Below are positions 23,673 to 48,929 of a DNA stretch of 48,999 bases, one piece after another. Numbering within the stretch: position 1 is the first letter of the stretch; each line of letters opens with the position of its first letter. The DNA comes from Saprospiraceae bacterium (GTDB lineage: Bacteria; Bacteroidota; Bacteroidia; Chitinophagales; Saprospiraceae). The DNA is taken from positions 1 through 48,999 of the forward strand of contig JAQXAY010000234.1 of assembly GCA_029252685.1 (NCBI GenBank), in the 5' to 3' direction. The notes beneath the pieces were generated by a model. It was not told the origin of the DNA. It saw only the letters and a program-made list of their open reading frames with translations, and made no database searches. The translations under genes and the position numbers were made by a program.

Positions 23673-26600
23673 ATGAGATTTAATTGCTTTAGGATTATTG
23701 CTATTGCCTTTTCGTTGATAGCAGTAAATGATCTTTCGGGACAGGATTGTTCTTGTGTGGATTGTCCAATAGATATATTTAATTTACAGACACATACTAG
23801 TACGATTGATGTGCAGGTGGCAGGTTCTAATGATCTTGGTGATTGCGGCCTAAATCAAGTATGCTTTACCATTGCCCATACCTGGGTTGGTGATTTATCC
23901 GTTTCCTTGGTTTCTCCTTCAGGGCTAAAGTATCTAGTCATGGCCGATGCAGAGAATATGCCTCCAAACGGTTGTGGAAATTCAGAAAATAATATTGATA
24001 TCTGTATAGAGACTGGAACAAGTAATCCAATCACGAATAATACGGAATATATCTGCAACGGTACTGGAGCTTTTTGTATGGAAGGCAATGGTTACACTGT
24101 TCCTTGCGGCGGTGTAACGGATCCATTTGATGGAGCTTTGCAAGCTCCAAATTGTGATCTTGCTGATTTCAATGTTCCAGGACATCCTGCAAATGGTCAA
24201 TGGACCTTAGTTATAAATGATATTTGTGATCTTAACATAGGGCAATTGATTGATTGGTCCATAAGTTTTGATTGTGGTACATCTTCATGTTTGGGTTGTG
24301 ATGCGGACGGAGGTGATCTTACTTTTTCTGATTTTCAGGCTTGTGTGGGGGCTGCTGAGCTCAATCTGGAATTAGACCCGGTATACATGGGTACTGCTCC
24401 TGACTCATTGTTGTTTGATTATACCTACTTGATTATAGATTCTGGTTTTATAGTGGAGGTTAGTTCCAATCCAGATTTACAAAGTTACGGAGCTGGAATC
24501 TATTCCGTGTGTGGAATCTCTTATGAGACTGGACAATTAGCTGCAGTAGAAGGTCTTGTAGGTACAGCTTATTCTTCAATTGGTGTAAATCTAGGGATTT
24601 GTTTTGATGGTTCAGCCAGCTGCCTAGGGATAGAGATATTTGACCCTATTCCAGCTTATACAGAACTTGTAGAGCTTTGTTTTGGTAATTGTCATACTGG
24701 TTTAGATGATATAGAATATTGTACTTCAGGATTGTATGTTGTCAACTATGAAAGCGTTGGGGGCTGTATATCATCGATGAGTATAGACCTGAATATTGAA
24801 GAAGAATTCATTAGTACGGAGCAATTTTTCGTTTGCGCTGGAGAGGAGGTTTTGTACAATAGTCAGTCTTATTCGGCAGGAACGTATACAATTTTGTTGA
24901 ATTCTACCTTGGGCTGTGATAGTACAGTAACACTCTCCGTAGAGGAGGTTCCCGTTGATGCTGTTATTACTTCGGATGCATTGAACTTTGATTGTACAAT
25001 AGATTTGATCAAGCTTTTTAGTTCGGGCTCAACTTTTGAGAACTTAAGGTGGCTTGATGATGCCGGAAACCTCTTAGGAAGCGAGGATAGTCTTTCAATA
25101 AATACTGCTGGAACATACTATCTGGAGGCCTCTTCTGTGGCATCTAATGGCACTTGTATGGATACAAGTATGATTATAGTAGATGATCTCGGAGAATTGC
25201 CTGAAGCACCTATTTTTACTTTATTTGAAACTGGTCTTTGTATCAATGAACAGATTACATTTTGTGTATTGTTAGATAGTAATGTTGATACCTATGAATG
25301 GGTTTTGCCAAGTGGGGCAGGTGTTATAGGCGATGATAGTAGTCAATGTATTGAAGTTCTCTTTTCTGAAATTTTATCTGGTGAGGATATTTGTGTGTCA
25401 GGTCTAAATGCATGTGGTCAGGGTGCGTCATCTTGTATAAGTTTAGATGTCGATGAAGAACCTCTTATTCTTAATGTTTTTGAAGATTGTGATCTAAGCA
25501 CAGAAAGTTTTGATCTTGAAATCGTAGTATCAGGAATAGGACTTTCCGTTGTTTCTAGCACTATCAATACATTTGATTTTGATGGGAGTACTTTTTCTGC
25601 TGAAAATTTAGCTGGAGGTCTTACCTATTTTATAGAATTTGAATCTGCGAATTGCGGGTTGATTTCTGTTTCTAATACGAATGATTGTATTTGTGGAAAT
25701 GCAGATCCTTTTTTGGTTGGAGGTTCGCCTGAAATTTGCATTGGTGAACCTATTGAATTCGATAATACTGGCCCTTTGAATAATAGTTTATATGCGACAG
25801 CCTATATTCTTCATTCTGATCCTTCAGATGCGCTGAACTCTATTTTGATGATTTCTGATTTACCCATTTTTGAATATGATGCAACTATAATACCTACGGG
25901 GGTACTATTATACGTTACAGGTGTAAGAGGAAAGCCATTACCTATATTTAATGATCCTTTTATTGATCTGGATGATCCTTGTCTTACTTTCAGTAATCAG
26001 TTGGTATTTGAGTATAAAGAGCCAGAACCAATAGTTGCAAATATACCTGATATCTGTATTGGAGACCCATTACAATTAAATGTTGAGGGAACTGGAGGAC
26101 CATTTATGGTCTATGTTAATGGATTTGGATACGACTTTTCAAGTACCGGTAATATTCTTTTATTGCCGAGCCTAACAGGTAATTATACATTAGAGTATTA
26201 TGAGGACGGAAATGGGTGTACTGTAGATATGAATATGAATCTATTGTATGAGGTTCATGTGCCTGGGGACATAGGATTGACTACTTCAGCTGCTGAATTG
26301 TGCAATTCAACATGGGATGGAGAAACTACAAGTGTAGATCTTTCTACATTTTTAACAAATAGTACACCAGGTTCATGGACTGATGTCTCGAATTCGGGTG
26401 CGCTTTTGGGTTCTATATTTGATGCCGATGGAATTGAGCCTGGTTTGTATACGGTTGAGTTTACCACTGATGAAATAGGATCATGTCCATCTGAATCTTT
26501 AAGTTTGACAGTTGAGGTTGTTGCATGTGCTTGCCCAGGGCTAGAATCGAATGCTTACACTATTTGTAATTCAGAAAATTATTTGGATTTGAGTCTGTTT

Positions 26601-28070
26601 GTTCCCGATGGATTAGAAGGAGGTGTTTGGAGTTTAGATTTATCTGGATCTGTTGGCTCTGTCCCGCTTATTGAATTTGGAACCTTAATTTTCGATGCAA
26701 CTGTCTCAGGAGATTTTTCTTTGTTTTATGATTATACAGATTTAGGGTTTTTAGGTTGTCCTGCAATGGATACTTTGTATTTGGAAATCAATTCCTTGGA
26801 ACTTGTGTCTTTGAGCGAAGAAAGAGTTGATATTTGTATTTCTGACCTGCCATTGAATTTAAGTGATTTCGAACCTCAGGATGTTCCTGGCTCATGGTCT
26901 TATATGGGCACACAGGATGTAGTCTTAAATGAGGATGTGATTGAACTTGCGGAGGTGGGAAGTCATATACTTTATTTTAATGCAGATGCTACTCAAGATT
27001 GTGCTATTGGAATGGATTCTCTTCAAGTTGTAGTTCTTGATGTTCCTCAGCGTTTGAATCCAGCTGACAAGTTTATTGAGAAATATTGTTATGAAAATGC
27101 AGTGCAAATAGGCAGCTCTGCTTTATGCTCACAATCTAATTATGAATTTTTGTGGCATACCATATCTGGTTCAGAATTAAGTGATATTTATGCATGTCAG
27201 CCATTAGTTACAGATGCAGGGGTCTATGAGTTGATTGTTTATGATATGAATACGAATTGTGAAACTGTAGATACGGTGTTTGTGTCAGAAGCTGAAGATG
27301 AGCCAGAATTTGACATCAATGTAGACCCTATTACATGTTTTGGGGACTCAGATGGTGAAATACAATTTAATTCCATCGACGTGACATACCAACCATATAC
27401 GATCTTTCTTAATGGTGAAATGGTAGATTATCTAAACCCTGTTGAGAACTTAGGTTCTGGTAGCTATGATTTACTAATGATTGATTCGGAGGGTTGTACG
27501 ATAGGAAAAACACTTTCTATTTCTGAGCCTAGTGAGATGGTTTTAAATTTATTGCCTTTTGATCCAATCGTACAGATTGGGACACAGGTATCCTTAGAAG
27601 CTCAAAGTAATTATCCTGATGTTGTCTTTAATTGGGAAACTATCTCGGGTAACTACAATGATTATGGACCACTTCTTGACCTTACCGTTTTCTTTAATCA
27701 AAATGTAAGCTTGGAAGCAATAAATAGCGCTGGTTGCGCACGCCAGCTCGAAATAGAGCTTGAAGCTTTAGATAAATACAAGGTTTTCGTTCCTAATATT
27801 TTTTCTCCAAATAACGATGGTATAAATGATGGGGTAACTATTTTTTCGGGTAGTGACATCAATATAATTCGCTCCTTCAGGATTTTTTCTAGATGGGGGG
27901 GATTGGTTTATGAAAACTATAATTTTTCTCCAAATGACCTTGATTTAGGTTGGAATGGTTTTGTTGATGGACAGAAAGCGGCGGAAGGGGATTATGTTTG
28001 GTATGCAGAGGTGGAAATTGAGACTGGAGAAAGCAGAATGTTTAAGGGAGATATTGCACTTATTCGTTAA
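23673..28070 (+). CDS. giant secreted P-domain protein 1, type B T9SS sorting domain (one PKD-like repeat)
   Basis: A 1465-aa surface or secreted protein, the shortest of four paralogues. The ATG at 23673 opens a signal peptide (MRFNCFRIIAIAFSLI..., cleavage near LSGQ); a TTG at 23640 in frame is less likely. Order of parts: CSCVDCP motif and proprotein-convertase P domain (26-207, HTWVGDLSVSLVSPSG), a conserved unnamed domain with IYSVCGISYE (210-330), two GCDS-type short repeats (330-430), one Cys-paired Ig-like domain (428-505), one PKD-like domain (506-596), a long Cys-containing region with CICG and CACP motifs, a SprB repeat (about 1211-1295, DPITCFGDSDGEI) and the type B T9SS domain (1368-1465, VPNIFSPNNDGIND and FSRWGGLVYEN). 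An adhesin or matrix role is inferred. No enzymatic residues were recognised. Confidence 0.9.
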   Translation: MRFNCFRIIAIAFSLIAVNDLSGQDCSCVDCPIDIFNLQTHTSTIDVQVAGSNDLGDCGLNQVCFTIAHTWVGDLSVSLVSPSGLKYLVMADAENMPPNGCGNSENNIDICIETGTSNPITNNTEYICNGTGAFCMEGNGYTVPCGGVTDPFDGALQAPNCDLADFNVPGHPANGQWTLVINDICDLNIGQLIDWSISFDCGTSSCLGCDADGGDLTFSDFQACVGAAELNLELDPVYMGTAPDSLLFDYTYLIIDSGFIVEVSSNPDLQSYGAGIYSVCGISYETGQLAAVEGLVGTAYSSIGVNLGICFDGSASCLGIEIFDPIPAYTELVELCFGNCHTGLDDIEYCTSGLYVVNYESVGGCISSMSIDLNIEEEFISTEQFFVCAGEEVLYNSQSYSAGTYTILLNSTLGCDSTVTLSVEEVPVDAVITSDALNFDCTIDLIKLFSSGSTFENLRWLDDAGNLLGSEDSLSINTAGTYYLEASSVASNGTCMDTSMIIVDDLGELPEAPIFTLFETGLCINEQITFCVLLDSNVDTYEWVLPSGAGVIGDDSSQCIEVLFSEILSGEDICVSGLNACGQGASSCISLDVDEEPLILNVFEDCDLSTESFDLEIVVSGIGLSVVSSTINTFDFDGSTFSAENLAGGLTYFIEFESANCGLISVSNTNDCICGNADPFLVGGSPEICIGEPIEFDNTGPLNNSLYATAYILHSDPSDALNSILMISDLPIFEYDATIIPTGVLLYVTGVRGKPLPIFNDPFIDLDDPCLTFSNQLVFEYKEPEPIVANIPDICIGDPLQLNVEGTGGPFMVYVNGFGYDFSSTGNILLLPSLTGNYTLEYYEDGNGCTVDMNMNLLYEVHVPGDIGLTTSAAELCNSTWDGETTSVDLSTFLTNSTPGSWTDVSNSGALLGSIFDADGIEPGLYTVEFTTDEIGSCPSESLSLTVEVVACACPGLESNAYTICNSENYLDLSLFVPDGLEGGVWSLDLSGSVGSVPLIEFGTLIFDATVSGDFSLFYDYTDLGFLGCPAMDTLYLEINSLELVSLSEERVDICISDLPLNLSDFEPQDVPGSWSYMGTQDVVLNEDVIELAEVGSHILYFNADATQDCAIGMDSLQVVVLDVPQRLNPADKFIEKYCYENAVQIGSSALCSQSNYEFLWHTISGSELSDIYACQPLVTDAGVYELIVYDMNTNCETVDTVFVSEAEDEPEFDINVDPITCFGDSDGEIQFNSIDVTYQPYTIFLNGEMVDYLNPVENLGSGSYDLLMIDSEGCTIGKTLSISEPSEMVLNLLPFDPIVQIGTQVSLEAQSNYPDVVFNWETISGNYNDYGPLLDLTVFFNQNVSLEAINSAGCARQLEIELEALDKYKVFVPNIFSPNNDGINDGVTIFSGSDINIIRSFRIFSRWGGLVYENYNFSPNDLDLGWNGFVDGQKAAEGDYVWYAEVEIETGESRMFKGDIALIR

Positions 28071-28263
28071 TTTGGGATTAATTTTTGATAAGTCGTTTTA
28101 ATGACATAAATTTATGATAATTAGGTGATTGTGAATATAATGTTGCTTTAAAATTATGTGTTTTTTTGACTTCTAATTTGCATTTAGAAGCTCAAAAATA
28201 ATGTAAATTAATAATTGACCTGTTAACACCAGGTTTTTGAAAACTATAGAACAACACCTACAC
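28071..28263 (+). other. gap between giant genes 1 and 2 with two weak hairpins
   Basis: No gene. CTTCTAA/TTAGAAG (28170-28176 with 28184-28190) is a perfect 7-bp hairpin but lacks a following T tract. ACCTG/CAGGT (28218-28222 with 28230-28234) is followed by five T (28234-28238) and could be a weak terminator or attenuator 25 bases before the next start. Unlike the other gaps in this locus there is no strong terminator, so genes 1 and 2 may be partly co-transcribed. Confidence 0.35.
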
Positions 28264-31200
28264 ATGAACGACGCTTTTGCATCGGCAATCCGCAGATTAT
28301 CTGTGGTATGCTTTTTTATGATAAATTCCATATTGGCTTTCGCTCAACCTTGCGAATGTGCTAATTGTCCGCTTCCAATTACAGATAACGGTTCTTTTGA
28401 TGGTCTTTTGGATGTTACAGTTAATGGTCCAAATGACCTTGGTCTATGTCCACTTGAACAGGTTTGTTTTACTATAGACCATACCTGGATAGGTGATTTG
28501 TCTGTAAGTTTAACCTCACCTGCAGGTCTGAATTATCTTGTCATGGCTGATGCTAATAATGCAAGCGGAGGCTGCGGTACTAATGAAGACGATATTGATG
28601 TATGTATTGAGTTAGGTACAATGTCTCCATTGACAGGAGGTGCAGAATATAGTTGTAACAATGGTGGGGCTGCGCCTTGCCTAATAGGTGTTTGGAATGT
28701 TCCCTGTAATGTGACAGACCCCTTTGGAGGTGCTGTATCTGCACCGAATTGTGACTTAAATGATTTTAATATTCCAGGCGATCCTGCAAATGGTACTTGG
28801 GCTCTGACGATAAATGATGTTTGTGCTCAGGATGTTGGAACTCTGATTAACTGGTCTCTTGTTTTTGGGTGTGGTGTTATTGATTGTATATTATGTGAAG
28901 CTGATGGAGGTACATTGAATCAACCAGATGTTACTTCTTGTCAATTTGATCCAAGTTTGAACTTAAGTGTTAGCCCAGATTATGGATCGGGTGTCCCTCC
29001 TTCTGCTACAGAATATGGATATGTATACGCAGTCACTGATCTAGCCACAGGTTTAATAAATAGTTTTGAGTTAAATGCTAACTTCTCCGCATTGCCTGTT
29101 GGGGATTACTCTATCTGTGGATTATCCTATGCTTTCGTTGATGCAGTTATATATCCAACTTATATTGGTTCGCCTTATGCAGATCTTGAAGCTGATTTAG
29201 CCTTGTTGGATCCAGTTTTTTGTGGAAATCTTTCAACTAATTGTTTCGAGTTAGTTGTTGCTCCTTTGCCTACTCCAGGTATGGAGGCTGTGGATCTTTG
29301 TATAGGAGACTGTTATACATATAATGGAGTGGATTATTGTAATCCTGGTTTGTATCCTGTGATGATCACATCATATTTAGGTTGTGATAGTTTAGTGAAT
29401 CTAATGATCAGCCCATTATCTGATTCTAATGTGTTTATTGAAGGTCAGGTTTGTCCAGGAGAGACACTTGAAATAGGTGGAAGCGAATATCCCAGTGGTA
29501 ATCATTATCATTCGGATGTTGCTTATAATGGATGTGATAGTACCACAACCATTATAATAACAGAGTTTTTTGTAGCTGCATCAACCTCTACACCTCCTCC
29601 AATAACTTGCACAAATCCTTCAGTAATCATTACAAGTAGTGGTTCTTTTGGTTCTAGTTTTTTATGGTATGATGAGGATGGAAATCAAATATCAAGTCTT
29701 CCTGCAGTGGAAGTCTTTGAGGGTGGATGTTATGATTTAGTTGTATCAAGAGACTCTACAGGGATATCTTGTTCGGATACGTCAACTGTTTGTGTTGTAG
29801 AATTAATAGAAGAGACAGAAGTACCTACACTAACTGGTCCTACAGAAATATGCTATGGGGATACAATTACATTAAATGCCTCGATTGTTCCAGATTATCA
29901 AGATTATACTTGGACATTCCCTTCTGGGGTTGAAGTTTTAAATGGTGGAGATGGATTTCCTATCGCTATTTTAGTTTGGAATAGTCCAAATACGGGGACA
30001 GTCTGTGTAGTCGCCGAAGGCAGTTGTGGACCTTCTTTGCCAGGGTGTTTAGATATTGGATTTTCAATTGCATTAGATCCTCCTGCCATAAGTGGATTGG
30101 ATCAACTTTGTCCAAGTGATATTGCTGATTATGTGTCAGTTTTATCTGGAAGTAATGGATTTAATTGGACCTTGATTGGTGATGGGACAATACTCAATGG
30201 TCAGGGTACGGATACAGTTTCTGTACAGTGGAATAGTCCTGGGGTATGGCAAATATGTGCTAATGGTGTTTCTGATTGTGGAAGTGGTCCAATGACCTGC
30301 TTCCCAGTTTTAGTAAATTCTACGCCAGCTGCTCCCTTACTTACAGGTCCGTCTTTATTTTGTGATTTGGATACCTTGATGTTTACAGCTCAGGCATTTG
30401 ATCCATTGAATATTGGATTTAGCTGGGATATTCCTGGTTGTGCATCAGTCGTAGGTGGTAATGGAGCAGATACTCTTTTACTTTTGATGAATGAGCCTTG
30501 TGATTCGATTGAGGTTTGTGTAACCTCAGAAGGTGTTTGTGGTTTCGGGGAAAGTTCCTGTGCTGAAGCATTTCAGATAGCTGACGTAATTGCAGGTGAT
30601 ATTACTGGTAATCAAACACTTTGTTTAGATAATACAGAAACTTACCAAGTGCCTTTAAACGCTGATGCTATTAATTATGAATGGTTTGTGACAGGAGGTA
30701 ATCTGCTTTCTGGACAAGGTAGTAATGAGATTGATGTTTTATGGACTGATGCAGGTGTGGGCAGTATTTGCCTAGATATGTATGGAGCTTGTAATGTCGA
30801 CTCCTCTTCTTGTTTGGAGGTATATGTATTGCCTGAAGTTGATAGTATAAATGTAATTGGGGCGGATATTGTCTGTGATGGAAGTATCGTTGATTATACG
30901 GTTGAGAATCCTGATACTTTGATTAATACATTTGTTTGGACCAATACCTGTGGTCTGATTTTAAGTGGTCAAGGTTCAGCATCTATAGAAATAGACTGGA
31001 CAGGCTGTCCATCAGGCGGTGAGGTTTGCGTATACGGATCTGGAGATTGTTCTGACAGTCCCTTGTATTGTTTTGATGTTACTGGCGGAACGATTCCAGG
31101 TGATCCAGTAATTAATGGAGCTGATACAAGTTGTGTTGCTATCACTGATACTTATTGTGGTACATCAAGTGATGCCTCCTTGTATAGTTGGACTGTAGTA

Positions 31201-34200
31201 GGAGGAACTATCATTGGAAGTGCTTCGGACTTGTGTGCGGAAGTAACTTGGGAGCAATCGGGAGTTGGTCAAGTTTGTTTAGTCACTGAAAATGGCTGCG
31301 GTAGCTCAGTACAAACTTGTTACGATGTTGTTCTAGGTGATGCTCCTCCTGTGCCAGATATCCAAGGTTCCCTGTTTTCATGTGTAAACGAAGTGCAATC
31401 CTATTCTTATACGATTGCATCAACTAATATAATAAGCGTAGAATGGGCTATCCCAGATGCTTGTGGATCAATTATATCTGATCCGATTTCATCGAGTGTA
31501 GATGTAGAATGGCTAAATGCTGGAGATTGTGAGGTATGTATCCGAGTTGAAAATTCTTGCGGATTTGGACCCTGGTTATGTGAGTCTGTATTCGTTCAAG
31601 CACTTCCTACTCCTGATGCAGGAATTGATGATGAGGTTTGTGGTTTGGATTATAATCTTTCTGCTTCAGTTGGAATGGGTATGCTGTCTTGGGATGCAGA
31701 CGGTCCTGGAGATGTTGTATTTAGTAGTATAGGAGTTGCTAGTCCTGCTATTAGTGTTTCTATTCCAGGTGTATACACCTTAGTACTAGAAGAAGATATA
31801 TCTGGATGTATCGTTTCAGATACGGTGCTTATTCAATTTAATGAAGTGCCTACAGCGTCCCCTGTTGTGGATTATACTTGTGATGGAAGTTCAGAGAATT
31901 ATCAGTTCAGTATAGAAATGCTTGCGGGTAGCTCACCTTATACGATTAATGGAATTTCTGGCACATGGGTGGGACAGGTATTTACCTCTGATTTCATTCC
32001 TAGTTCATCGAATTATTCAGTTGAAGTCTTTGATGCAAAAGGTTGTGGTCCTGTTATTATTGAAGGAACTCATGCATGTCCATGTATTTCTGAGGTTGGT
32101 CAATTTGCTGATACTACGTATCTACTTTGTGTTGATGAAACTTTAGACCTTCCAGATCCTACAGGTTTGGTGTTAGATGATAATGATGTTTTATCTTATA
32201 TAATTACTTCAGTTCCTCCAAATAGTATGGATCTTATGTCGGGTCTCATTGAGCACAAAACCGATAATATAGTAACATTCATCCCTGGAATGCTTGAAAA
32301 TACTACGTATTATTTAACAGCTTTGGTTGGTGATGAAGTTTTGGGATTAGTAGATCCTAATGATGCTTGCGTTTCTTTCAGTACTTCAATTAAGTTTAGT
32401 TTTACGGCCTTACCAAATTTCTCATTTGCCACTCCAGGTGTAGACCTATGTTTTGGTGAGCCTGTTGTTGCTGAAGTTAGTATTCAGGATGCAATTTGTG
32501 CAGATGTGAAATTAGACTTTGGTAATGGCTTAGAGCAAGATTACACTTGTTTAGAGGATGGAGATCTTATTATTTTGCCCTTAAATCTTCCAGGTAACTA
32601 TACTGTTACGGTTATATCTTTAAGCAACGAGAATGGTTGTACGAATAGCTCACTAGCTGAATTTGAAGTGAATATTCAAGAAATTGATGGGGTATTGTTA
32701 GAAACAGATGCAAGTGTTTGTAACAGTACTGAAACAGGTATGACTACTCAAATCGATCTTTCTAATTATATAATATCAAATACTTCAAATTCATTGATTT
32801 GGAAAGATATTTCAGGTTGTCCCTTTAGCGGTAATCTTCCAATTATAGATCTTCAGGGAGTAAGTCCTGGTCAGTATACCTTTTCTTGTGAGGTAGATCC
32901 TTTAGTTTCTAATTGTATTTCAGCTCCAGCGTTTATTGTGTTAACTGTTGAAGATTGTGATTGTCCAGAACTTGATGTTCTTGTTCCGGGGGATTTATGT
33001 AACAGTGCAGCATTCTTGCAGCTCAATGATTTAATAATAGATAACACAGTTGTTGTTGATTGGAATATCATATCTGAGCCAGGTACTGCTGGTTATGCAG
33101 CAGCATCTCTCATAGGTTCTGGGTTAGATTTAACAAATTCTGCACCAGGGGTGTATCAGCTTGGATTAGAGTTTACAGGAAGTGCGCCCTTAGGTTGTGT
33201 GTTGACAAATAGCCTTCAGGTTCAGTTATCGGATCAACTTGAAGCTGGAATATCACTCGGTATACTTGAATTCTGTTTTGAGAGTGGAGAACAAGTTGCC
33301 TTAGGTGAACTGTTGCAGGGTAGTGACGTAGGAGGTATATGGACAGAAGAATCTGTTGTGTCTTCCACAGGAAACGCTTTTTCTGCTATAGCTGGGACAT
33401 TTGATGTTCAAACCCAAAACGTGGGCTTATATAATTTCCGCTATTTAGTGGACTCAGAAGATCCTTGTTTGGACAATGCTACTGATGTTTTCGTTCGGGT
33501 AAATGCTAATCCAATTATTGATATGGAGGATACTGGTCCATTGACCTGTACCGATCCATTAGGAGAGATAAGTACACTTCAACAAAGTAGTTATTCTTAT
33601 CAATGGCTATTTGGAGGCTTTTTGGTTTCAGAGGATTATTCTGTGGAGGTTGACTTAGGCGGCTCTTATGAACTGATAGTGATCGATGAACTTACTTTTT
33701 GTGAGTCCAAGGGTTCTGTGTTTATTGATTCATACCAGGAAACGCCTGTTTTGAGTCTTGATTTTGAAGATGTCATCTGTCATAACCAGGCAACTGGTAT
33801 TGTTGAGGTAGAAAATACTTTAGGAGGTGAAGGGCCTTACGTTTATTCATTGAATGGGGGAGACTTTACTTCGGAGACTGTATTTGATAACCTAGTTGCA
33901 GGTACTTATGAGGTTGTTGTTGAAGATTTAAATGGCTGCGTAGGGGTCGAAAGTGTGGACTTGATTAACCCAGATCCACTTGAGATAAGTGTCGATCTAG
34001 ATTATAGTATTTTTTCAAATGGTTTTATAGGGGTTGGAGATAGTATCCAGATAGATGCCATTGTAAATACGTCTATTGGGAATATTCAGTCTGTTATTTG
34101 GAGCCCTTCTTATTTGGTAGATTGTGATACTTGCCTAACCGTGTATGCATACCCTGAATTTACTACAAATGTGGGTGTTGAAGTTACTGCTGGAGGCTGT

Positions 34201-34533: not shown

Positions 34534-34560
34534 AGAATAATTGTAGGTGTTAAGTATTTT

Positions 34561-40600: not shown

Positions 40601-41726
40601 TAGTGAACAATCTGGTTTATATAAATTTGAGTATCAGGTTGATTCTGAGAGTCCTTGTGTAGATGAAAGTTCAGTAATTGAAGTTGTGGTGAATGCATTG
40701 CCAATAGCAGCGGTAGAAGCATTTGATACTATTACTTGTGTGAACCTCGAAGTAGAATTAAGTGCTTATAAGGAGGACAGCTATGTATTTGAATGGTCTG
40801 AACAGTCTGATTTAAATGTGGTGATCGGAACAAACGCTTCTTTAATGATTAATGAGGCTGGGGCATTTAGTTTGGAGGTTGTTGACGCAGAAACTGGTTG
40901 TATATCCTCAGAATCAATAGAAATTCCTGCTTATCTGGAGGTCCCAATTCCGGAGATAGGAGTAAGCGATGTTGATTGTTATGGAGATGAGAATGGACTT
41001 GTTGAAGTTCTTTCAATTGAAGGAGGTGTCAGTCCTTACTATCTTAGTTTTGATAATGATTATTATTCTGATTTGACAGTTTTCCCTTCTCTTGCGGCAG
41101 GGGATTATACCTTGTCAATTGAAGATGCTTTTGGCTGTGTAACGAATGCGATTGTGTCTATAGAGCAGCCTGAACCTATGGAAGTTACTATTGATCCACT
41201 TTTTAATGTTTCTGGAGAGCAATTAGTGGGCTATGGTGATTCACTTCAAGTATTCAGTAATATTAATATTGCTATGGATTTGATTGACTCTATTGTATGG
41301 AGTCCATCTACTTTAGTAAGCTGTGATACCTGTTTGAATACTTGGTTACATCCTGATGAGACTACCATATTTGACCTTGATGTCTATGCTGGTAATTGTT
41401 CTGCAAATACATTGTTATCCGTGTTTGTGAAAAAGGATTATCCGGTGTTTTTCCCAAATGTTATATCTATAAATAGCAGTAATAATATGTTTTATCCACA
41501 TGGGGATTATATGGCTGATGTAGTCAATTATCTGAAGATTTATGATCGTTGGGGAAGTTTGGTTTTTGAGGATTATAATTTCGCGCCAAATGATCCTTCC
41601 CGTGGTTGGAACGGACAGGTCAATGGTCAGAACGTGGAAGCAGGGACTTATATCTTTGTCTCCGAAATTCTATTTATTGACGGGCATAAAGAGCTTTTCA
41701 AGGGGGACGTAAGTATAATAAAATAG
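34686..41726 (+). CDS. giant secreted P-domain protein 3, type B T9SS sorting domain (ten PKD-like repeats)
   Basis: A 2346-aa close paralogue of protein 2. Signal peptide 1-25 (MSYSKLWMHLLC..., ending NLSAQ). Parts: PCECSNCP and P domain (26-205), CGLSY domain (209-335), two GCDS repeats (339-435, GCDSVVNLFL and GCDSTTSIIV), one Cys-paired Ig-like domain (436-518), ten PKD-like domains (519-1368), one further Ig-like domain, the shared module with PCISDAG and CTCPNLNV, a SprB repeat (2087-2175, DVDCYGDENGLVEV) and the type B T9SS domain (2249-2346, IYDRWGSLVFED, RGWNGQVNG). The T9SS domain lacks the NxDGxND motif seen in most relatives (it reads ISINSSNNMFYPHG). The three extra PKD-like domains compared with protein 2 look like one block duplication. 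It is flanked by terminators and is likely its own unit. Confidence 0.9.
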   Translation: MSYSKLWMHLLCIPLLFLYTNLSAQEPCECSNCPVAITDNGTFDANLTVSTSGPNDLGLCPLQEVCFTIDHTWVGDLFVTLTSPSNLKYFVMADAGNAGGGCGTNEPNVDVCITLGTGNPLTNNTEYVCNNVNPCLFDNDWTVPCGGVNSPLSTAVQAPGCDLNAFNVAGNPVNGLWVLSITDVCAQDVGFLTNWSLSFECGLLDCFTCSANGGELTQPDVESCRFEPELIQNPFPFYQNPLDTPDPAEYGYAFVIVDDNTGAIISIVPTVNLISADPGTYTVCGLSYYFDDFGDAQLFVGQQYNTLVEDLSSGNPSFCGDLSDNCYEVTVLQDSDDTDISDVLCLGDCYEIGAFIFCTPGLHPMNLVNQDGCDSVVNLFLDPIFPVFNSIQELVCAGDSILIGGILYGEGDTLINGIAANGCDSTTSIIVSEFIVESGIYPLVPGLDSLSCTNNMVQVEAYGSIDGLYEWFDSDGSLVNTGEDFEVTIAGCYDLIVSRDSSGYFCTDTAFICIGEILPEIVDPIIDGETFLCVGDTIVYSIINPDPAYIDYSWNLPADIVILSGGDGFSSVEIEWNSIFTGEICVQTETACGFSDEVCLAISFEFELEAPVVDGDALVCVGDAVYYSASVDGSDDFFWTITGGSILSGQFTEEVSVFWGTDGGTICASGLSYCGTGPASCFDVAANFPPTVATISGEDTICAGSMTSYLLDVDTNTDSIFWDVPSCVQILSGQNSEELELSWPEDCSGGVICVETYNVCGAGETDCFDVAVIPVAVPQGIQGPIEVCAGTYEFVQPDLPEAISYLWTTSAGNIISGQSNDTINVDFFDPGFIDLCVEISTECHTLDPNCLSIEVLGTISIPLIEGLISVCPDSTAQYSLISPDPLVASYLWTSSCGVIIGNVTSDLGISVDWTSCPSGGQVCLEATGVCGEIEITCLDVEMISIPAAQDLLGPDEVCSFDTISFEASGSETDILEYLWDIPDCATLISGQGTNQIELVFSEFCAIESVCVSATNACAFGPENCLDVLVNTPPAAGDISGEDIVCLETEYLYSIPPIAEATDYIWSFSGATILAGQGTEAIELIWTEGGDQTITLSMTTDCGLIPVADFAVFVQANMEVPEILGEDLVCDSTTVTYSLLNGIPEVLSFNWTTSCGLILSGQGTSSIEIDWTDCLVGGQVCVIANGPCDNSPEVCFDVSVQTNPESPVIQGVDASCESSLDSYCVDSQGAEDYDWTILGGQIIDGISTDCISVEWDTEGIGQVCVQTSNTCGLSPQVCMDVDIDGLPAVPILDGVSLSCIDESQTYTILNLESDIIGIDWTITNSIGFIFSGQNTDEIVVNWLGSDLGEICVSVENECGISQACIEVNVVDIPEPIAGLDDVICGLSYSLEGSGGSGLINWSLVSGPGSVYFENENELSTEVTVDQSGLYVFELEINDSGCVAFDQVEIRFDEIPILGVVTAPVCDDIADNYTITIEVLNGSEPYTVYGLSGTWFGNIFTSDLIPSGDSYDVEIYDNNGCGPVVLSGEHICPCISDAGTYVNQEINLCGDEVYDLQLGLDTILDANDILTYYILSELPIDTIDPASIMNVSQDDSVLFVPGMEYGVEYFVVIGVGNELVGTTDLSDPCLSLSEVASISFTQNPEVSFVLNEQAFCEEESVVVAMSIQHSACADIIISDGLGNTFEFYCVGDGDELVLGDFAPGNYNLVLESIIGQDCIGIPGADTDVIVYQVPELEITELVEVCNSTDSGNSTFFNLTDIIELGNGPFEWENLDNCLASGTMPALDFEGVAPGNYTFRVSTTTASAPCEDEVLEFTIVVLDCTCPNLNVSIPAVHCNGDALIDLGQYLEDPTVLVNWNLSNTPPVGVYSPPNLTTSTLDITGSTPGLYTLGLLFNGTAPVGCVLENSLNIHLSGQLSSGTPLGTLEFCEGDDAFVDLSNLLSGADTGGSWTEISAVASSGGGFDSANGTLNIYSEQSGLYKFEYQVDSESPCVDESSVIEVVVNALPIAAVEAFDTITCVNLEVELSAYKEDSYVFEWSEQSDLNVVIGTNASLMINEAGAFSLEVVDAETGCISSESIEIPAYLEVPIPEIGVSDVDCYGDENGLVEVLSIEGGVSPYYLSFDNDYYSDLTVFPSLAAGDYTLSIEDAFGCVTNAIVSIEQPEPMEVTIDPLFNVSGEQLVGYGDSLQVFSNINIAMDLIDSIVWSPSTLVSCDTCLNTWLHPDETTIFDLDVYAGNCSANTLLSVFVKKDYPVFFPNVISINSSNNMFYPHGDYMADVVNYLKIYDRWGSLVFEDYNFAPNDPSRGWNGQVNGQNVEAGTYIFVSEILFIDGHKELFKGDVSIIK
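36240..38790 (+). repeat. ten tandem PKD-like (PKD_6-type) repeats in giant protein 3
   Basis: Ten repeats of about 255 bases. Subtypes recur with period three: repeat 3 (WDVPSCVQILSGQ) resembles repeat 6 (WDIPDCATLISGQG), and repeat 5 (TSSCGVIIG, DWTSCPSGGQVC) resembles repeat 8 (TTSCGLILSGQG, DWTDCLVGGQVC). Repeats 1, 2, 3 and 7, 8, 9, 10 line up with the seven repeats of protein 2. Confidence 0.85.
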
Positions 41727-41749
41727 CCTAATTATATAAACAAAAAGAG

Positions 41750-41780
41750 AGCCTAAAACATAATTGTTTTAGGCTTTTTT
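41750..41780 (+). terminator. terminator of giant gene 3
   Basis: AGCCTAAAACA (41750-41760) pairs perfectly with TGTTTTAGGCT (41765-41775) over a TAAT loop, followed by TTTTT. It starts 23 bases after the stop codon. Confidence 0.95.
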
Positions 41781-41876
41781 AGTTTGTAAAATTTATAACA
41801 TAAATATTTCATTAATATAGATAATATTTGCATATTATTGCATTGGAAATTTTGTTTTCGAAAACCGATTCCCTTT

Positions 41877-44800
41877 ATGATTAAGAAAACTATACTGAGA
41901 AAATTCAATTTTCTTCTAGCTGGCTTGTTATCCTGCACAATGTTAAATAGTCAGACTTCTCCCGGATGTGGTTGTGATTATTATGGCGTATCTGCTTGTT
42001 TGAACGATACTGTATTTAATGGTGGGGACTTTTTAACTGTATGTTATGAAGTTTCAGATCTGATTAATAGTTCCTTAGGAGTAAATCAAGATATATGTGG
42101 TGTAAGGGTTGATTTTACGCATAGCCTAGTCTATGGTGTGGAAATGTATTTAAGCAGTCCAAGTGGGCAAAGTATTCAATTAGTGGGACCATATGTTGAT
42201 ATTGAAATCGATGATCAATACGGAACTACCTTTGGGACGAATTGGGATGTCACCTTCGTTCCCTCTAATCAAACTCCTAATCCGGATCCAGGGATTCTTC
42301 CTCAGTGGACAAATGCTCAAGTTTGGCTTTCATCAGCAACTTACAATGGCAGCTATTTCCCAAGTGGCACTGACGGTCTAGAAAGTATAAATGGATCAGC
42401 TAATGGTCAATGGTGTATTCAAATTGATAATACGAATCTAATTCAGCCTTATACAGGAAGGATTTTAGATTTTGAGGTTATTTTCTGCGATGTAGGAGGT
42501 CTTCCATGTTGTATGGCTGATGCTGGAGAATTAATTTATAACGATACAGATGTTAGTGGTTGTTTAGGTGATTCGTCTTTAATTCTAGATATCGATCCAT
42601 ATAATGAAAATGGTTTTCCAGATACTAGTTATTACGAATATGGATTTATAATTAGTGATGGGGATTCGCTCATTATTGCTATAGAAGAGGAAAGTAGTCT
42701 TTTAGACTACCCGCCGGGTGATTACACTATTTGTGGGCTATCCTATTTAATTGAGGACTCCCTGTTCATTGATGATTTAGTTGGAAATTTTTCTTTAGAC
42801 TCTTTACACAATTTGCTAGAAGCTGCTGATCCTGCTTTTTGTGCTGATGTCAGTTCCAATTGTATTGAATTTAGTATTGAAACGCCTCCGATAAAGTTTG
42901 ATACTACTCTAGTTATTTGCGAAGGCGATAGCATTGAATTCTTCGGACAGAATATAATAGATGCCGGGGAGTATTTATTTACATTTCCTAATCCTATTGG
43001 CTGTGATTCAATTGGATTACTTCAGGTAAATATTGATACAGGCAATTTGCTTGTTTTATCTGATACGCTTTGTTTTGGAGATTCTGCAACTATAAATAAC
43101 ATTGATTTTTATTTTGAGACTGGCATTTATGAGGAGTCCTTTTTCAATGAAAATGGTTGTGATTCAATCGTAAGACTTGATTTACAGGTCCTACCTGAAA
43201 ATGAGGTCATACGATTTGATACAATCTGTGCAGGTGAAGTGATTACGATAGATGGATCTGACTATGATGCATCAGGGGTTTATAATATTGTTTTAGAAGA
43301 TCATAATGGTTGTGATAGTACAGTAGTACTTAATTTAGAAGTAGAAGAAATTATTGCTTCATTTGTGGGGCCTAATGTGTTGGATTGCGCAAGTGCTTCC
43401 ATAGTACTTGATGGAGGACAAAGTTCAGGGGCAACAGATTTAATATATGCTTGGACTACATCCGGAGGAGTGATTGATTCAGCCACTGATGAGGCTTTTA
43501 TTCAAGTTAGTGGAGCTGGAGATTATACCTTAACTGTTACGTCTAATGCTGGTTGCCAGGATCAAGTTACTTCAACAATTCTTGAAGATGTGAATGTGCC
43601 TGTTATTTCAGTAGCGGATTTTGATGTATTGGACTGTGCAGTCGATACTATAAATCTAGATGCTTCAGGGAGTAATTTTATTAATAGTGGGATTTTTGAA
43701 TGGACTACATCAGATGGAAATATCATACAAGGTTCGAGTACTCCAGTGATTGATATAGACCTTGATGGTACCTATGAATTAACTATTACTGATACCATAA
43801 ATAATTGTTTTTTAAGTGAAGTTTTCGTTGTAGAGATTGATACTGTAGCACCACCACTGTCAGGCTTGGACGCAGTCATAAATTGTGTAAACCCTGCTGT
43901 TCCTTTGGAGCTTGTTGGGGATTATGCCGGGCCTTACAATTGGGTCTGGAAAACTTCTTCTGGGAATGTACTACCAGGTAGTGATAATGTGCCTGTTTTT
44001 TTTGAGGTTTCAGCCGAGGGTATATATGTCCTTGATGTTTTGAATATTGAAAATGGTTGTGTGACAATTGATTCTGTATCAATAGGGATGGATACAATAG
44101 CACCAAATACAATTTTGATTGCAAATGATGATTTAGATTGTGCCAATACTTCTGTTTTGGTAAATGGATTAAATTCAGACCCCTTGAGTGATTTTCAGGT
44201 TGACTGGACTGCTCCTATTGGTGGTATTGAGTCAGGTGATGGCACACTTTCAATAGTCGTGGATGAGGCTGGGCAGTATATCATGGAATATACAAACCTG
44301 GAGAATGGTTGTTCTAGCAGTGACACTATTGAAATTATAAGTAATGTTGAGTTTGAAGACATAGAGGGGGCAGTTGATAATCTAATCTTGGATTGTGAGA
44401 ATACTTTGATCCAATTAGGCACAGACCTTACTAATCCTGATGGTCCTAGTTTTGATTATTCTTGGTACACTGTTGATGGTGTTTCACAAGGACTTGGTCA
44501 AATATTAGAGGTCACTGAGGCGGGCATTTATGTAATGGAATTGCTTAACCAATCGAATGATTGTATTAGTTTGGATACTGTGAATGTTGAGTCTATTCAG
44601 AGAGAGATAATTGCTGATGTATTATTTTCAAATATTCTGACTTGTGACAATCCTGCAACTGATTTGATTGGAAGTTACACCGATTACTTAAATACCGATC
44701 CAATCACTTTGAATTTTACTTGGTATAATCAAGATGGTGTATTACCTGGTCAGGATTCGTTGATTAATGTGGATCAAGCAGGGATATACGAGTTCATTGT

Positions 44801-47800
44801 TTTTGATACATTCAGTAACTGTGGAGATACTATCTCTATCGAAGTAGAGAAGAACACGGAGTTGCCAAGTCCAAATGCTGGCGCTGATGTCGCTCTAGAT
44901 TGTGAGACTGGTTCTGCTGATTTAGTTGGTTCATTTTCTGATGATCCAAATACGCATACGAGTAGTTGGTCTACGACGGAGGGGAATTTTTTAAGTGTGG
45001 GAGAATTTGAGGCGTCTGTAGATGAAATAGGGTCTTATACTTATACAGTTACGAACTCAGTGAATGGTTGTTCTTTTGAGGATCTTGTACTCGTTTACCT
45101 AGATACAATATTGTGCACACCGTCTTTAGATACTATTCCTGATGTAATAGTGAATTGTTACAATTCCCCTGAAGTATTTGGTTCAATAGACGCAACTAAT
45201 GTTTTTGATATAAACTCAAATTTAACGTACTCTTGGAGTGTTGTTGATGGGATTATAGATGGGCAGATGGATACATTGATTATAAAAGCTTTGATTGGGA
45301 CTTATGTTTTTGAAGTAACTAATCCGCTTTTTGATTTTACATCAAGAGATACAATTGAAATTATAGACGGGCGTGAATATCCTGTTATTGATGTGTTTAG
45401 TGATACACTCGTGGTGGATTGTTCTCAGTTGGAAGATAATGTTGAATTATTTGGTTTTGATAATTCAGGATCATCTTTTATCCAATTTCAATGGGAGTCA
45501 CTTGTAGAGACAGATATTGTTTCGGGATCAGACTCCACGCATTGTTTAATAAATGCCCCTGGCTTGTATTCCTTAAGTGGTATAAATACTTTGACAGGTT
45601 GTGAGGATGCTGCTTCAATATTTGTAGATATTGAAGGCGCTTTTCCTCCTGTAGGTTGTTTACCGGATAATGTTCAGTTTGACTGTGATTCTTCTTCGAT
45701 AGAAATTGCTTTAGATGGTTGTACTGATCCTAGCTTCGAGTATAATTGGATTATTGAAACTGGTCAGTTAGAGGGTCCAAATGGAGGCGCTTCAGTTATG
45801 GTTAGTATATCTAATTCTCCTTCTACACTTTTGGTAGAAATTACAGATACAACGAATCATTGTACTTCAGCTGATTCTTTGTTTATTTATGGTGAGGGTC
45901 AGTGTTTCCCAGATTGTGAAATCAGTGTACCTGAAGTATTAAATTGTGCAGTGGATTCGGTGGAGTTAGTATCAATAGGATCAAATGATGAAGGAGATTT
46001 CTCTTACAATTGGGTTACAGATATAGGAAACTTTTGCTCTGCTACAAACAACTCTACAACTTGTGTGGATTCGGATGGATTTTATACCTTATTTGTTGTT
46101 GATAATGCAACTGGATTGAGTTGCTCTTCTACAATACTTGTTGAGGATGATTATTCTACCTTGGATGCTGTGATTAATCCAATCGACAGTGTTAATTGTT
46201 ATGCAGATTCTGTCAATATTTCTTTTTCTGTCTTAGATGATCAGCCTTTTTCAGTCACCTGGATTAGCCCTGATAATGATTGTCCTGTGTCAGAACCTGT
46301 AGATGGATTTTATTTTGCTCGATGTGGCGGGTACTATGGTTTAGTAGTTGCTTCAGATGAGACCGGATGCTTAGATACCTTTAATTTTAATATTCCGATG
46401 GATACAATAAGGCCAATTGCTAATTTGTATTCAGATACTATACTTGATTGCAGTAATCCCTCACTAGCTCTGTTAAGTTCAGGGTCTTCCTCAGGAGTAG
46501 ATTTTTTTTATACATTTTTTAATGCGGACTGGGACTTATTAAATGAAGGGGTTAGTGTTCCTATTTCTACGACTACAAATGCGGGTCTGCATGCTTTGAT
46601 TGTTCAGGATATGATAAATGGATGCAAAGATACTTCGTTTTATGAGGTGATTGACAATGCCAATATTTTTGAAGCAGATGCAGGTGTATATGTGCCTTTG
46701 GATTGTGAAAATCCAAATTTAGAATTACAGGGGAGCTCAGATGCGTTTGATAATCTAGTTTACTATTGGGAAGGAGATGAAGATTGTTTTTTGACAGATC
46801 CCAACAATCAAAATGTAACGATTGATTGTCCTGGTGATTACGTGCTTGTTGTTTTAGATACTATTACAGGTTGCGATGATCTTGCTTACGTCACTATTAG
46901 TCAAGATAGTGATCTGCCATTATCGGATTCTGGGCCAGATGTATTTATTGAATGTACGGATGATTTTGTTGTGTTGGATGGTTCTGGTTCGGATGTGGGA
47001 CCCAATGTTTTTTATAGTTGGTATACTGAGGATGGAAATATTACTAGTGATCCATCTAATACCTTTATTGATGTCGATGAGCCGGGTATTTATTATTTGA
47101 TCGTAGAAAACATAATTACAGCCTGCAGCGATACTTCTTTGGTAGAAGTTATTAATGGAGAAACTTTTCCTATTGCCGATGCGGGTCTAGATCTTATTAT
47201 TGGTTGTGATCAGTTTAGTGTTCAGGTCGATGCGAGTAATTCATCTATAGGTTTAGATTATAATTGGACCACTCAAGACGGTCAGATTGCTCTTGGAGGA
47301 AATAGTCTGAGTCCAACCTTAGGCGCTGAAGGAACTTATGTTTTAACAGTAGAAAATGATGGATGCTTTGATACTGATACCTTATTGGTAACATTAAATA
47401 CAGAATCTCCAGAGGCGATTATTACTACTTTTAGTAATTATATTAATTGTGTGTATGATACCATTACATTAACGGGTCTAGCATCAACTCCTGCCGGAGT
47501 AATAGATTTCAGGTGGTATTCTGCTGGTGAGATTATTGGCGAAAATGAGAACTCTAGTATTCAGTTGACTCAACCTGATATTTACTTTCTTGAAATTTTA
47601 AATGTAGAAAATAATTGTCGAGATACTGCATTTATAGAGATTCTAGAATCTTATGCTGAGCCAAATTTGATTTATGAATTGCCTGAGGCTTTGAACTGTT
47701 TGAATTCAGTTGTCACAATAGATGCCTCTGCATCTAATTCAGATAATGGGATATTAGCAGCTTTGTATGGGCCTCAAAATGCAACAATTATTAATGGAAA

Positions 47801-48929
47801 TTCTTTAACGCCTTCGGTTGATACAGCAGGTACTTACCAGCTAATTATTCGAGATGGTTTTTCTCTTTGTTCAGATACAGTTTCAATTAATGTGTATGAA
47901 GATTACAATCAGCCAGAATTGATTTTAAGTTCAGATCCGAATGTACTCTGTGAGGTTAATGATGCTGTTCTTGATCTTAGTAGCTCTTTACCGCTAAATA
48001 GCATTTCGTATCAGTGGTTTTTTGAAAATATATTAGTACTCGAAGGCGACAGTATCATTGAAGTAGATGAATTAGGGGAGTATTATGTAGTTGGAACAAG
48101 TCAAATTAATGGATGTAAAGATACATTGGATATTAGTGTTGGGTCAAAGGGGGACCCAATAGAAAGTGTGCTTTTCTCGGCTCTTGATCTTAAATGTTTT
48201 GGAGATTCGGATGCAGAGATTAGTATTGATTTTGTAGAAGGAGGAACATCTCCTTATCTCTACAAGTTAGGTGAGCTTGATTTTGGAACCTATAGCCAGT
48301 TCAAGTATTTGTCAGCAGGTTCGTACCTCTTAGAAGTTGAAGATGCGGATGGCTGTCTTTATGAAGAGCTTGTAATTATTGAGGATCCAGCAGCTTTGAA
48401 GGTATCTTTAGGTGATGATCAATACATACGGTATGGAGAACTTACAAATATTGAAGCAGATATTGAGGCTGAAAATGTAATCGAAAAGATCTACTGGGCG
48501 AATATACCTTTTTTGAATTGTTCGAATTGCTTGGATGTAGAGGTGGGGCCTTCTTATACAAGTATCTACGATGTTCTGGTTGTTGATGATCAACTTTGTG
48601 AGGCTAGAGATTCAGTCATAATATATGTTGATGAAAGCCCGGGTATCTTCCTTCCGAATACGTTCAATCCAAACGGATCATTTGAAAATAGTGTTTTTGG
48701 CCCGTTTTCGGATGAGTCAGTTGCCCTAATTAACGATTTTAAAGTTTTTGATCGTTGGGGTGATATGGTTTTCGAACAGCAAAATTTTCAAGCAGCGCAG
48801 CAAGTTGGATGGGATGGTAGTTTTGATGGAAAAAAAGTACAGTCAGGTGTTTTTGTCTGGCTATTGGAAGCAACGCTTACAAATGGAGAGGTGATAAGTT
48901 TGCAGGGGTCTGTTGCTTTAGTGCAGTAG
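41877..48929 (+). CDS. giant secreted P-domain protein 4, type B T9SS sorting domain (19 Cys-paired Ig-like repeats)
   Basis: A 2350-aa, more distant member of the family. The ATG at 41877 (MIKKTILRKFNFLLAG..., cleavage near LNSQ) is preferred to the in-frame TTG at 41838. Parts: CGCDYYG and a P-type domain (about 28-204, VEMYLSSPSGQS, GQWCIQIDNTN), CGLSY domain (211-335), three GCDS repeats (340-491), 19 Ig-like domains each with an N-terminal and a C-terminal Cys (492-2094), a SprB repeat (2095-2180, LKCFGDSDAEISI) and the type B T9SS domain (2255-2350, FDRWGDMVFEQ, VGWDGSFDGKK). The NxDGxND motif is replaced by FNPNGSFENS. It carries none of the PKD-like repeats that fill proteins 2 and 3. 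No terminator is visible in the 70 bases left after the stop. Likely an extended fibrous surface protein. Confidence 0.9.
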   Translation: MIKKTILRKFNFLLAGLLSCTMLNSQTSPGCGCDYYGVSACLNDTVFNGGDFLTVCYEVSDLINSSLGVNQDICGVRVDFTHSLVYGVEMYLSSPSGQSIQLVGPYVDIEIDDQYGTTFGTNWDVTFVPSNQTPNPDPGILPQWTNAQVWLSSATYNGSYFPSGTDGLESINGSANGQWCIQIDNTNLIQPYTGRILDFEVIFCDVGGLPCCMADAGELIYNDTDVSGCLGDSSLILDIDPYNENGFPDTSYYEYGFIISDGDSLIIAIEEESSLLDYPPGDYTICGLSYLIEDSLFIDDLVGNFSLDSLHNLLEAADPAFCADVSSNCIEFSIETPPIKFDTTLVICEGDSIEFFGQNIIDAGEYLFTFPNPIGCDSIGLLQVNIDTGNLLVLSDTLCFGDSATINNIDFYFETGIYEESFFNENGCDSIVRLDLQVLPENEVIRFDTICAGEVITIDGSDYDASGVYNIVLEDHNGCDSTVVLNLEVEEIIASFVGPNVLDCASASIVLDGGQSSGATDLIYAWTTSGGVIDSATDEAFIQVSGAGDYTLTVTSNAGCQDQVTSTILEDVNVPVISVADFDVLDCAVDTINLDASGSNFINSGIFEWTTSDGNIIQGSSTPVIDIDLDGTYELTITDTINNCFLSEVFVVEIDTVAPPLSGLDAVINCVNPAVPLELVGDYAGPYNWVWKTSSGNVLPGSDNVPVFFEVSAEGIYVLDVLNIENGCVTIDSVSIGMDTIAPNTILIANDDLDCANTSVLVNGLNSDPLSDFQVDWTAPIGGIESGDGTLSIVVDEAGQYIMEYTNLENGCSSSDTIEIISNVEFEDIEGAVDNLILDCENTLIQLGTDLTNPDGPSFDYSWYTVDGVSQGLGQILEVTEAGIYVMELLNQSNDCISLDTVNVESIQREIIADVLFSNILTCDNPATDLIGSYTDYLNTDPITLNFTWYNQDGVLPGQDSLINVDQAGIYEFIVFDTFSNCGDTISIEVEKNTELPSPNAGADVALDCETGSADLVGSFSDDPNTHTSSWSTTEGNFLSVGEFEASVDEIGSYTYTVTNSVNGCSFEDLVLVYLDTILCTPSLDTIPDVIVNCYNSPEVFGSIDATNVFDINSNLTYSWSVVDGIIDGQMDTLIIKALIGTYVFEVTNPLFDFTSRDTIEIIDGREYPVIDVFSDTLVVDCSQLEDNVELFGFDNSGSSFIQFQWESLVETDIVSGSDSTHCLINAPGLYSLSGINTLTGCEDAASIFVDIEGAFPPVGCLPDNVQFDCDSSSIEIALDGCTDPSFEYNWIIETGQLEGPNGGASVMVSISNSPSTLLVEITDTTNHCTSADSLFIYGEGQCFPDCEISVPEVLNCAVDSVELVSIGSNDEGDFSYNWVTDIGNFCSATNNSTTCVDSDGFYTLFVVDNATGLSCSSTILVEDDYSTLDAVINPIDSVNCYADSVNISFSVLDDQPFSVTWISPDNDCPVSEPVDGFYFARCGGYYGLVVASDETGCLDTFNFNIPMDTIRPIANLYSDTILDCSNPSLALLSSGSSSGVDFFYTFFNADWDLLNEGVSVPISTTTNAGLHALIVQDMINGCKDTSFYEVIDNANIFEADAGVYVPLDCENPNLELQGSSDAFDNLVYYWEGDEDCFLTDPNNQNVTIDCPGDYVLVVLDTITGCDDLAYVTISQDSDLPLSDSGPDVFIECTDDFVVLDGSGSDVGPNVFYSWYTEDGNITSDPSNTFIDVDEPGIYYLIVENIITACSDTSLVEVINGETFPIADAGLDLIIGCDQFSVQVDASNSSIGLDYNWTTQDGQIALGGNSLSPTLGAEGTYVLTVENDGCFDTDTLLVTLNTESPEAIITTFSNYINCVYDTITLTGLASTPAGVIDFRWYSAGEIIGENENSSIQLTQPDIYFLEILNVENNCRDTAFIEILESYAEPNLIYELPEALNCLNSVVTIDASASNSDNGILAALYGPQNATIINGNSLTPSVDTAGTYQLIIRDGFSLCSDTVSINVYEDYNQPELILSSDPNVLCEVNDAVLDLSSSLPLNSISYQWFFENILVLEGDSIIEVDELGEYYVVGTSQINGCKDTLDISVGSKGDPIESVLFSALDLKCFGDSDAEISIDFVEGGTSPYLYKLGELDFGTYSQFKYLSAGSYLLEVEDADGCLYEELVIIEDPAALKVSLGDDQYIRYGELTNIEADIEAENVIEKIYWANIPFLNCSNCLDVEVGPSYTSIYDVLVVDDQLCEARDSVIIYVDESPGIFLPNTFNPNGSFENSVFGPFSDESVALINDFKVFDRWGDMVFEQQNFQAAQQVGWDGSFDGKKVQSGVFVWLLEATLTNGEVISLQGSVALVQ
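43351..48160 (+). repeat. 19 tandem Cys-paired Ig-like repeats in giant protein 4
   Basis: Each repeat is about 84 residues (about 253 bases). Shared pattern: a short linker often ending in P, (L/I)(D/N)C, a V-x-L strand, Y/F-x-W, G-x-I, then G-x-Y-x-L-x-V and (N/G)GC-x-x-x-D. The two Cys are in positions that could join the two sheets. Repeats are diverged at DNA level, so this is not a recent expansion. Confidence 0.85.

Follow-up and report, generated by a model that had tools for sequence, protein, structure and literature searches.

Giant P-domain proteins with type B T9SS domains in a Saprospiraceae bacterium: repeat numbers mostly kept among relatives and scarcity of lysine and arginine

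P domains usually sit in proteases of the furin and Kex2 families. Structures of the grappling hook protein A (GhpA) from Aureispira sp. CCB-QB1 (PDB 9flp and related entries) have reportedly been presented by Lien et al. in 2024. Two reports describe GhpA as a T9SS-secreted, heptameric protein (PMC11205867, PMC13319060). T9SS cargo with a type B C-terminal domain (CTD) is held by PorP-like (PorP/SprF) proteins, and one such shuttle can serve orphan substrates (PMC9143113, PMC12618676). Very long lysine-free stretches that are kept in evolution, so-called lysine deserts, have been described for proteins linked to ubiquitin or pupylation (PMC10665810, PMC10169902). Here, we compare four tandem genes of a Saprospiraceae bacterium with these systems. 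Genes of this kind number in the dozens in uncultured Saprospiraceae (36 CHU_C domains in 3.4 Mb in the case presented here), and almost nothing is known about them. Our analysis ties these genes to the one solved relative, GhpA, and finds their repeat number mostly conserved within orthologs.

Four tandem genes and their surroundings

The window analyzed comprises the whole of contig C48 (48,999 nt) from a genome of 3.44 Mb in 297 contigs that is 95.85% complete. Four tandem open reading frames on the forward strand, P1 to P4, encode proteins of 1476, 2098, 2346 and 2363 aa (Table 1), and the contig ends at position 48999, 70 nt past P4. Where relatives of the protein heads carry names, nearly all of them are Saprospiraceae or Lewinella-type MAGs; plasmid-borne relatives of the head were not found.

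Table 1. Coordinates of P1-P4, their modules and neighboring features in the window
Feature	Position	Strand	Content or basis
Outer-membrane-barrel-like protein, small, 224 aa	15241..15915	-	syntenic with P5 and P2 in relatives
P5, M12B reprolysin-like metalloprotease	16315..23028	+	19 PKD_4 stretches, type A T9SS tail
Hairpin and T run 3' of P5	23051..23088	+	read directly from sequence
P1	ORF 23640-28070; part 23673..28070	+	signal peptide, CxCxxC, P domain, CGLSY, 2 GCDS, 1 Ig, 1 PKD_6, long beta-domain tail, type B CTD
P1 single PKD_6	25197..25451	+	Pfam search, iterated HMM
P1 type B secretion domain	27786..28055	+	CHU_C profile
P2	ORF 28237-34533; part 28264..34533	+	order of P1, with 7 PKD_6
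P2 P domain	28348..28896	+	furin P-domain fold in model; 0 Lys/Arg
P2 CGLSY domain	28897..29286	+	common to all four proteins; without Pfam name
P2 array, 7 PKD_6	29812..31596	+	Pfam search, iterated HMM, positional orthology
P2 type B secretion domain	34249..34518	+	CHU_C profile
Terminator-like hairpin 3' of P2	34561..34586	+	scan
P3	34686-41726	+	order of P1, with 10 PKD_6 (P2 positions 1-7 plus 3 between positions 2 and 3)
P3 array, 10 PKD_6	36237..38789	+	Pfam search, iterated HMM
P3 type B secretion domain	41451..41705	+	CHU_C profile
Terminator-like hairpin 3' of P3	41750..41775	.	scan lists - strand; + strand also ends in T run
P4	ORF 41838-48929; part 41877..48929	+	divergent P-like domain, CGLSY, 3 GCDS, 19 Ig, SprB-like, type B CTD
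P4 three GCDS repeats	42906..43346	+	iterated HMM
P4 array, 19 Ig-like domains	43374..48173	+	iterated HMM, positional orthology
P4 type B secretion domain	48648..48890	+	CHU_C profile

Repeats were counted with HMMs that were built iteratively for three modules (GCDS, Ig and PKD_6), each from a single seed. The GCDS-Ig-PKD_6 counts amount to 2-1-1 in P1, 2-1-7 in P2, 2-1-10 in P3 and 3-19-0 in P4, exactly reproducing the Ig/PKD numbers (1/1, 1/7, 1/10 and 19/0) given in an initial annotation of this DNA. The Ig and PKD_6 profiles cross-match, both modules being beta-sandwiches, and each label is that of the better-scoring profile, usually by a margin of 10-38 bits, with a near tie in P4 at residues 1279-1363 (33 vs 32). 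According to the same annotation all four proteins are built on one chassis of which only the middle changes. This applies to P1, P2 and P3, which BLASTP aligns in two co-linear blocks, one running from the head through GCDS and Ig to the first PKD_6 (35-39%), the other formed by the long tail (24-37%). Their common C-terminal region of ~850-970 aa consists of beta-rich domains and is far longer than had been stated. These alignments support P1, P2 and P3 as co-linear paralogs that differ mainly in the middle block. P4 does not fit the scheme, as BLASTP finds it to share with P1-P3 only aa 184-515 (CGLSY-GCDS-first Ig) and the last ~320 aa. The P domain (PF01483), present in 22 of 22 heads of the family, had been assigned to all four proteins and indeed scores above cut-off in P1-P3, while P4 stays below (17.9 vs 21). 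The SprB repeat, likewise assigned to each protein, remains below the Pfam cut-off of 28 bits in P1 (17.2) and P4 (20.8) and is not called in P2 and P3 by the Pfam search.

The type B T9SS domain expected in all four proteins is present in each of them, with CHU_C (PF13585, cut-off 27 bits) scoring 44.6, 49.8, 34.4 and 33.2 bits in P1, P2, P3 and P4, respectively. TIGR04131 (cut-off 35) is exceeded only by P1 (37.6) and P2 (36.5), P3 (21.6) and P4 (25.7) lying below. Another CHU_C type B protein, of an ordinary length of 915 aa, is encoded near rpoC (4829-7576, minus strand), outside the tandem. The genome encodes SprA (2067 bits) and contains 13 PorP/SprF genes, all located elsewhere than in the window, where none was found; as no PorP/SprF gene lies beside them, P1-P4 classify as orphan substrates. 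We consider it fairly probable that the four proteins are surface stalks that are anchored, have a set length and display a P domain at the tip. Guided by a Sec signal, they would be exported by the T9SS and their type B domain would come to lie at the membrane, with Ig/PKD-type beta-sandwich domains that contain Cys extending outward from the cell as a rod. P domain and CGLSY domain would then be situated at the free N-terminal end and do the binding, possibly in an adhesive role. The paralogs would differ in stalk height and tip, and height would mostly be kept within each paralog over evolution. What speaks against such stalks is that P domains usually accompany proteases, that P3 and P4 do not reach the TIGR04131 cut-off, and that repeat number can change.

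The region upstream of P1 offers a different reading. Congeners and other genera (L053, L057, L058) retain the gene order of small barrel protein, P5 and P2-type protein, and the same barrel gene-P5 synteny is found beside P1 in L074. P domains being normally found in proteases such as furin and Kex2, the P-domain stalks could be the substrate-capture partner of metalloprotease P5 and hold protein material near it. We hold such a partnership to be quite improbable, given that the domain search yielded no catalytic domain in P1-P4, that terminator-like hairpins lie between the genes and that the P5 neighbor is missing in most other head relatives. Promoter-like and terminator-like sites are not commoner than in shuffled sequence, so that only intergenic ones were considered. 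The hairpin and T run after P5 argue for separate transcripts of P5 and P1. For the 224-aa barrel protein as candidate for a missing SprF shuttle, comparison with the PorP/SprF set of its own genome gave nothing (hhalign probability 2%). Profile comparison assigned no clear family to it, one of its relatives giving a partial, sub-threshold match to PF11751 (E 0.001). In L056, the P2-type gene is followed at a distance of ~18 nt by a barrel homolog.

Unrelated architectures at this site in related strains had been named initially as evidence that would speak against a common system, and a comparison of the locus reveals them in part. Genome G001 exhibits, in order and distributed over several contigs, TonB, barrel gene, P5 and P1 head; P1 tail and P2; P3 tail and P4 head; and P4 middle. 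In G002, TonB, barrel gene and P5 are followed by a 328-aa P1 tail, by P2 and by a protein whose head differs. G031 features barrel gene, P5, a single P2-type gene and then unrelated genes. The P1 tail remnant of G002 (L038 8444-9427), directly 3' of P5, is 51% identical to P1 1155-1476; neither a signal peptide nor P1 head sequence precedes it, and with G002 being 87% complete, absence elsewhere is no proof.

Repeat number and kinship among relatives

The initial annotation had interpreted the locus as an adhesin system that diversifies length and surface, one or the other of two modules being amplified to this end. Length and module type do vary greatly among the paralogs, relatives occur with four (L054), nine (L070) or two (L067) PKD_6 or with six to seven GCDS, and the gene content of the site differs between congeners, all of which would suit such a system. 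The orthologs point the other way. Best matches of PKD_6 repeats 1-7 of P2 are repeats 1-7 in both G001 and G002 (7/7 each), and positional counterparts were found for six of the seven in L058 (from G031, another genus) and for five each in L057 and L056. Seven PKD_6 in the same order thus occur in P2-type proteins of six species from at least two genera, and P3 retains the seven repeats of P2 in unchanged succession and has three more inserted past position 2. Similarly, P4 and G031_C78a, a protein from another genus, both have 19 Ig repeats, and best matches reside at the same index for 11 of the 19, a value reached by none of 20,000 permutations. The alignment of P2 with its G002 ortholog contains 16 gap columns in ~2100 at 55% identity, so the length of P2 is held while its sequence drifts.

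Tandem DNA repeats were found nowhere in the window by TRF, and repeat-to-repeat identity within P2, P3 and P4 averages 23-30%; slippage-type variation is therefore not expected, and rapid variation in length finds no support. Taken together, changes in length would be infrequent, occur in blocks and mainly distinguish paralogs, with length mostly kept within orthologs. That repeat number is able to change is seen in L054, P3, L067 and L070. L054 stands as counter-example to conservation, with four PKD_6 vs seven in its near relative L056, the first three strong ones matching L056 positions 1, 5 and 6. Recent tandem amplification of P2 and P4 is ruled out by positional orthology and the lack of DNA repeats, and judging from the sequences, amplification of PKD_6 and Ig is old. 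Amplification of either module in different members is thus borne out, albeit as an old event, and in relatives a third module, GCDS, is expanded instead of Ig or PKD_6, with six copies in L072 and seven in L073. Length diversification as such finds little backing in these comparisons, and we regard a diversifying adhesin system as distinctly unlikely.

On the initial reading the four proteins would be each other's closest relatives, which does not agree with the trees: the P-domain tree places P1, P3 and P4 with other proteins, and the tails of P1 and P4 do not join the pair formed by those of P2 and P3. In the P-domain tree, P1 and its G001 ortholog join L069, L072 and L073 of other species (SH-aLRT 86), P3 clusters with a protein encoded on contig C2 of its own genome (100), P2 groups with its congeners (98) and P4 with G031_C78a (99). 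P2 and P3 fall together in the CGLSY tree (95) and form a pair in the own-genome tail tree (86), followed by C236a/b (91), with P1 and P4 elsewhere at weak support, all three trees being limited by long branches and short alignments. The topologies suggest three older subfamilies (P1, P2/P3 and P4) residing side by side plus a P2/P3 duplication, and they suggest that heads have been exchanged between middles. The protein on contig C2 (L001 1-6147, minus strand, genome G000) starts like P3, with a similar signal peptide and P domain (73% identical), and goes on with ~20 Ig-type repeats, which past the P domain take the place of CGLSY and PKD_6. It is a head swap within one genome.

Comparison between congeners identifies the P domain as the most conserved segment (87% and 81%), with much of the tail at 46-56%, and this fits a binding tip. 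As dS is near saturation (mostly 1.3 to infinite), dN/dS by domain was dropped and the comparison was used for identity and gap counts only.

Exclusion of lysine and arginine

Lys and Arg together account for 0.7-1.6% of P1-P4 and reach their highest density in signal peptide and secretion domain. In P2, neither residue occurs in P domain, CGLSY and GCDS, one is present among the 595 residues of PKD 1-7, and eight are present among the 95 residues of the secretion domain. Head and repeats are thus the only regions that show the depletion. The body of P3 contains 7 in 2216 (0.3%), while the same nucleotides yield 10.8% upon shuffling; with ~11% for shuffled nucleotides, base composition is ruled out as the cause of the depletion. 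Among relatives, runs free of Lys and Arg extend over 1634 (L057), 1979 (L056) and 2252 residues (L058). The trait is wider than the P1-P4 family and uneven, since values between 0.06% and 6.5% were obtained for 16 type B proteins sampled at the level of family, order and class. Two type B proteins from other families, L142 and L139, contain 0.06% and 0.2%, respectively. Acidic residues make up only 2.5% of L142, and acidity and Lys/Arg loss can therefore be uncoupled. In P5, Lys and Arg amount to 1 in 1450 residues (0.1%) in the PKD_4 array, to 5.7% in the catalytic part and to 11.5% in the tail. The difference between the array and the other two parts disfavors a requirement of the secretion route as explanation for the depletion. 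The T9SS cargo literature searched makes no mention of Lys/Arg-poor T9SS proteins.

A stalk kept almost free of Lys and Arg would be expected to resist trypsin-like proteases and to stay strongly acidic and extended, and the exclusion of these residues provides a simple testable hypothesis, i.e. protease resistance. Trypsin-based proteomics in its standard form would hardly see proteins of the P1-P4 type. On a more speculative note, giant stalks of Bacteroidota may constitute a distinct class of material: rods of set length that are selected for nearly no Lys and Arg over 1000-2000 residues and would thus be invisible to trypsin-like proteases of the producer and its surroundings, with catalytic and secretion domains remaining ordinary and repeat number serving as a ruler for tip height. 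We put this forward tentatively, as a possibility on the doubtful side.

Structure models and comparison with known systems

For the P2 head (575 aa, 22 sequences), AlphaFold2 gave a model with a mean pLDDT of 81 and a pTM of 0.37, and for the tail (968 aa, 8 sequences) one with a pLDDT of 76 and a pTM of 0.31; the predicted single domains are credible, their packing is not, and a rod shape cannot be read from these models. Residues 1-178 of the head model match the furin P domain with a Z score of 11.1 and an rmsd of 2.5 A over 118 aligned residues. Foldseek returned pieces of the GhpA cryo-EM structure as top matches for both head and tail. GhpA is also the best profile match, with E 1e-97 in ~25 stretches for the head/stalk alignment and E 9e-109 for the tail alignment, whose best stretch is GhpA 5801-5886, adjoining the GhpA C-terminus. 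On the strength of profiles and models, GhpA is the closest known protein to P1-P4.

It is conceivable, therefore, that P1-P4 build a GhpA-like multimeric grappling appendage that catches prey or particles, all the more as GhpA itself is T9SS-secreted and heptameric (PMC11205867, PMC13319060). We deem this unlikely. Only the repeats and the C-terminal domain match, and profile positions before ~366, which cover the P domain and the greater part of CGLSY, gave nothing in GhpA beyond two negligible stretches of ~1.5 bits. Furthermore, P1-P4 measure 1.5-2.4 thousand residues vs 5898, and single-sequence PDB searches with P1-P4 gave no matches, GhpA being reached by profiles only. An anchored stalk with a P-domain tip is the reading we prefer.

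With GhpA, P1-P4 share a long Ig/PKD-like beta-sandwich array and a related C-terminal secretion domain, and like GhpA they would be T9SS cargo of Bacteroidota. They differ from the heptamer-forming GhpA in being 2.5-4 times shorter (1476-2363 aa) and in a head (P domain and CGLSY) for which no match was detected in GhpA. Residues 1-178 of the P2 head adopt, in the model, the same fold as the proprotein convertase P domain of furin and Kex2; unlike these enzymes, P1-P4 are devoid of a subtilase domain and have the P domain at the N-terminal end of a stalk. With SprB and other type B CTD proteins (PMC9143113, PMC12618676), they have in common a CHU_C-type C-terminal domain, which in P1 and P2 also passes TIGR04131, a signal peptide, and SprA and PorP/SprF in the genome, and they are set apart from SprB-type proteins by SprB repeats that are only sub-threshold, by the lack of an adjoining PorP/SprF gene and by the P-domain head. 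T9SS repeat proteins, GhpA-like stalks and P domains are of a kind already known; the combination of a P-domain tip, a repeat number that is specific to the subfamily and persists across genera, and almost complete exclusion of Lys and Arg is undescribed as far as checked. Very long lysine-free stretches kept in evolution are also the hallmark of lysine deserts (PMC10665810, PMC10169902), in which lysine alone is avoided, whereas P1-P4 dispense with both Lys and Arg and do so in secreted repeats of Bacteroidota.
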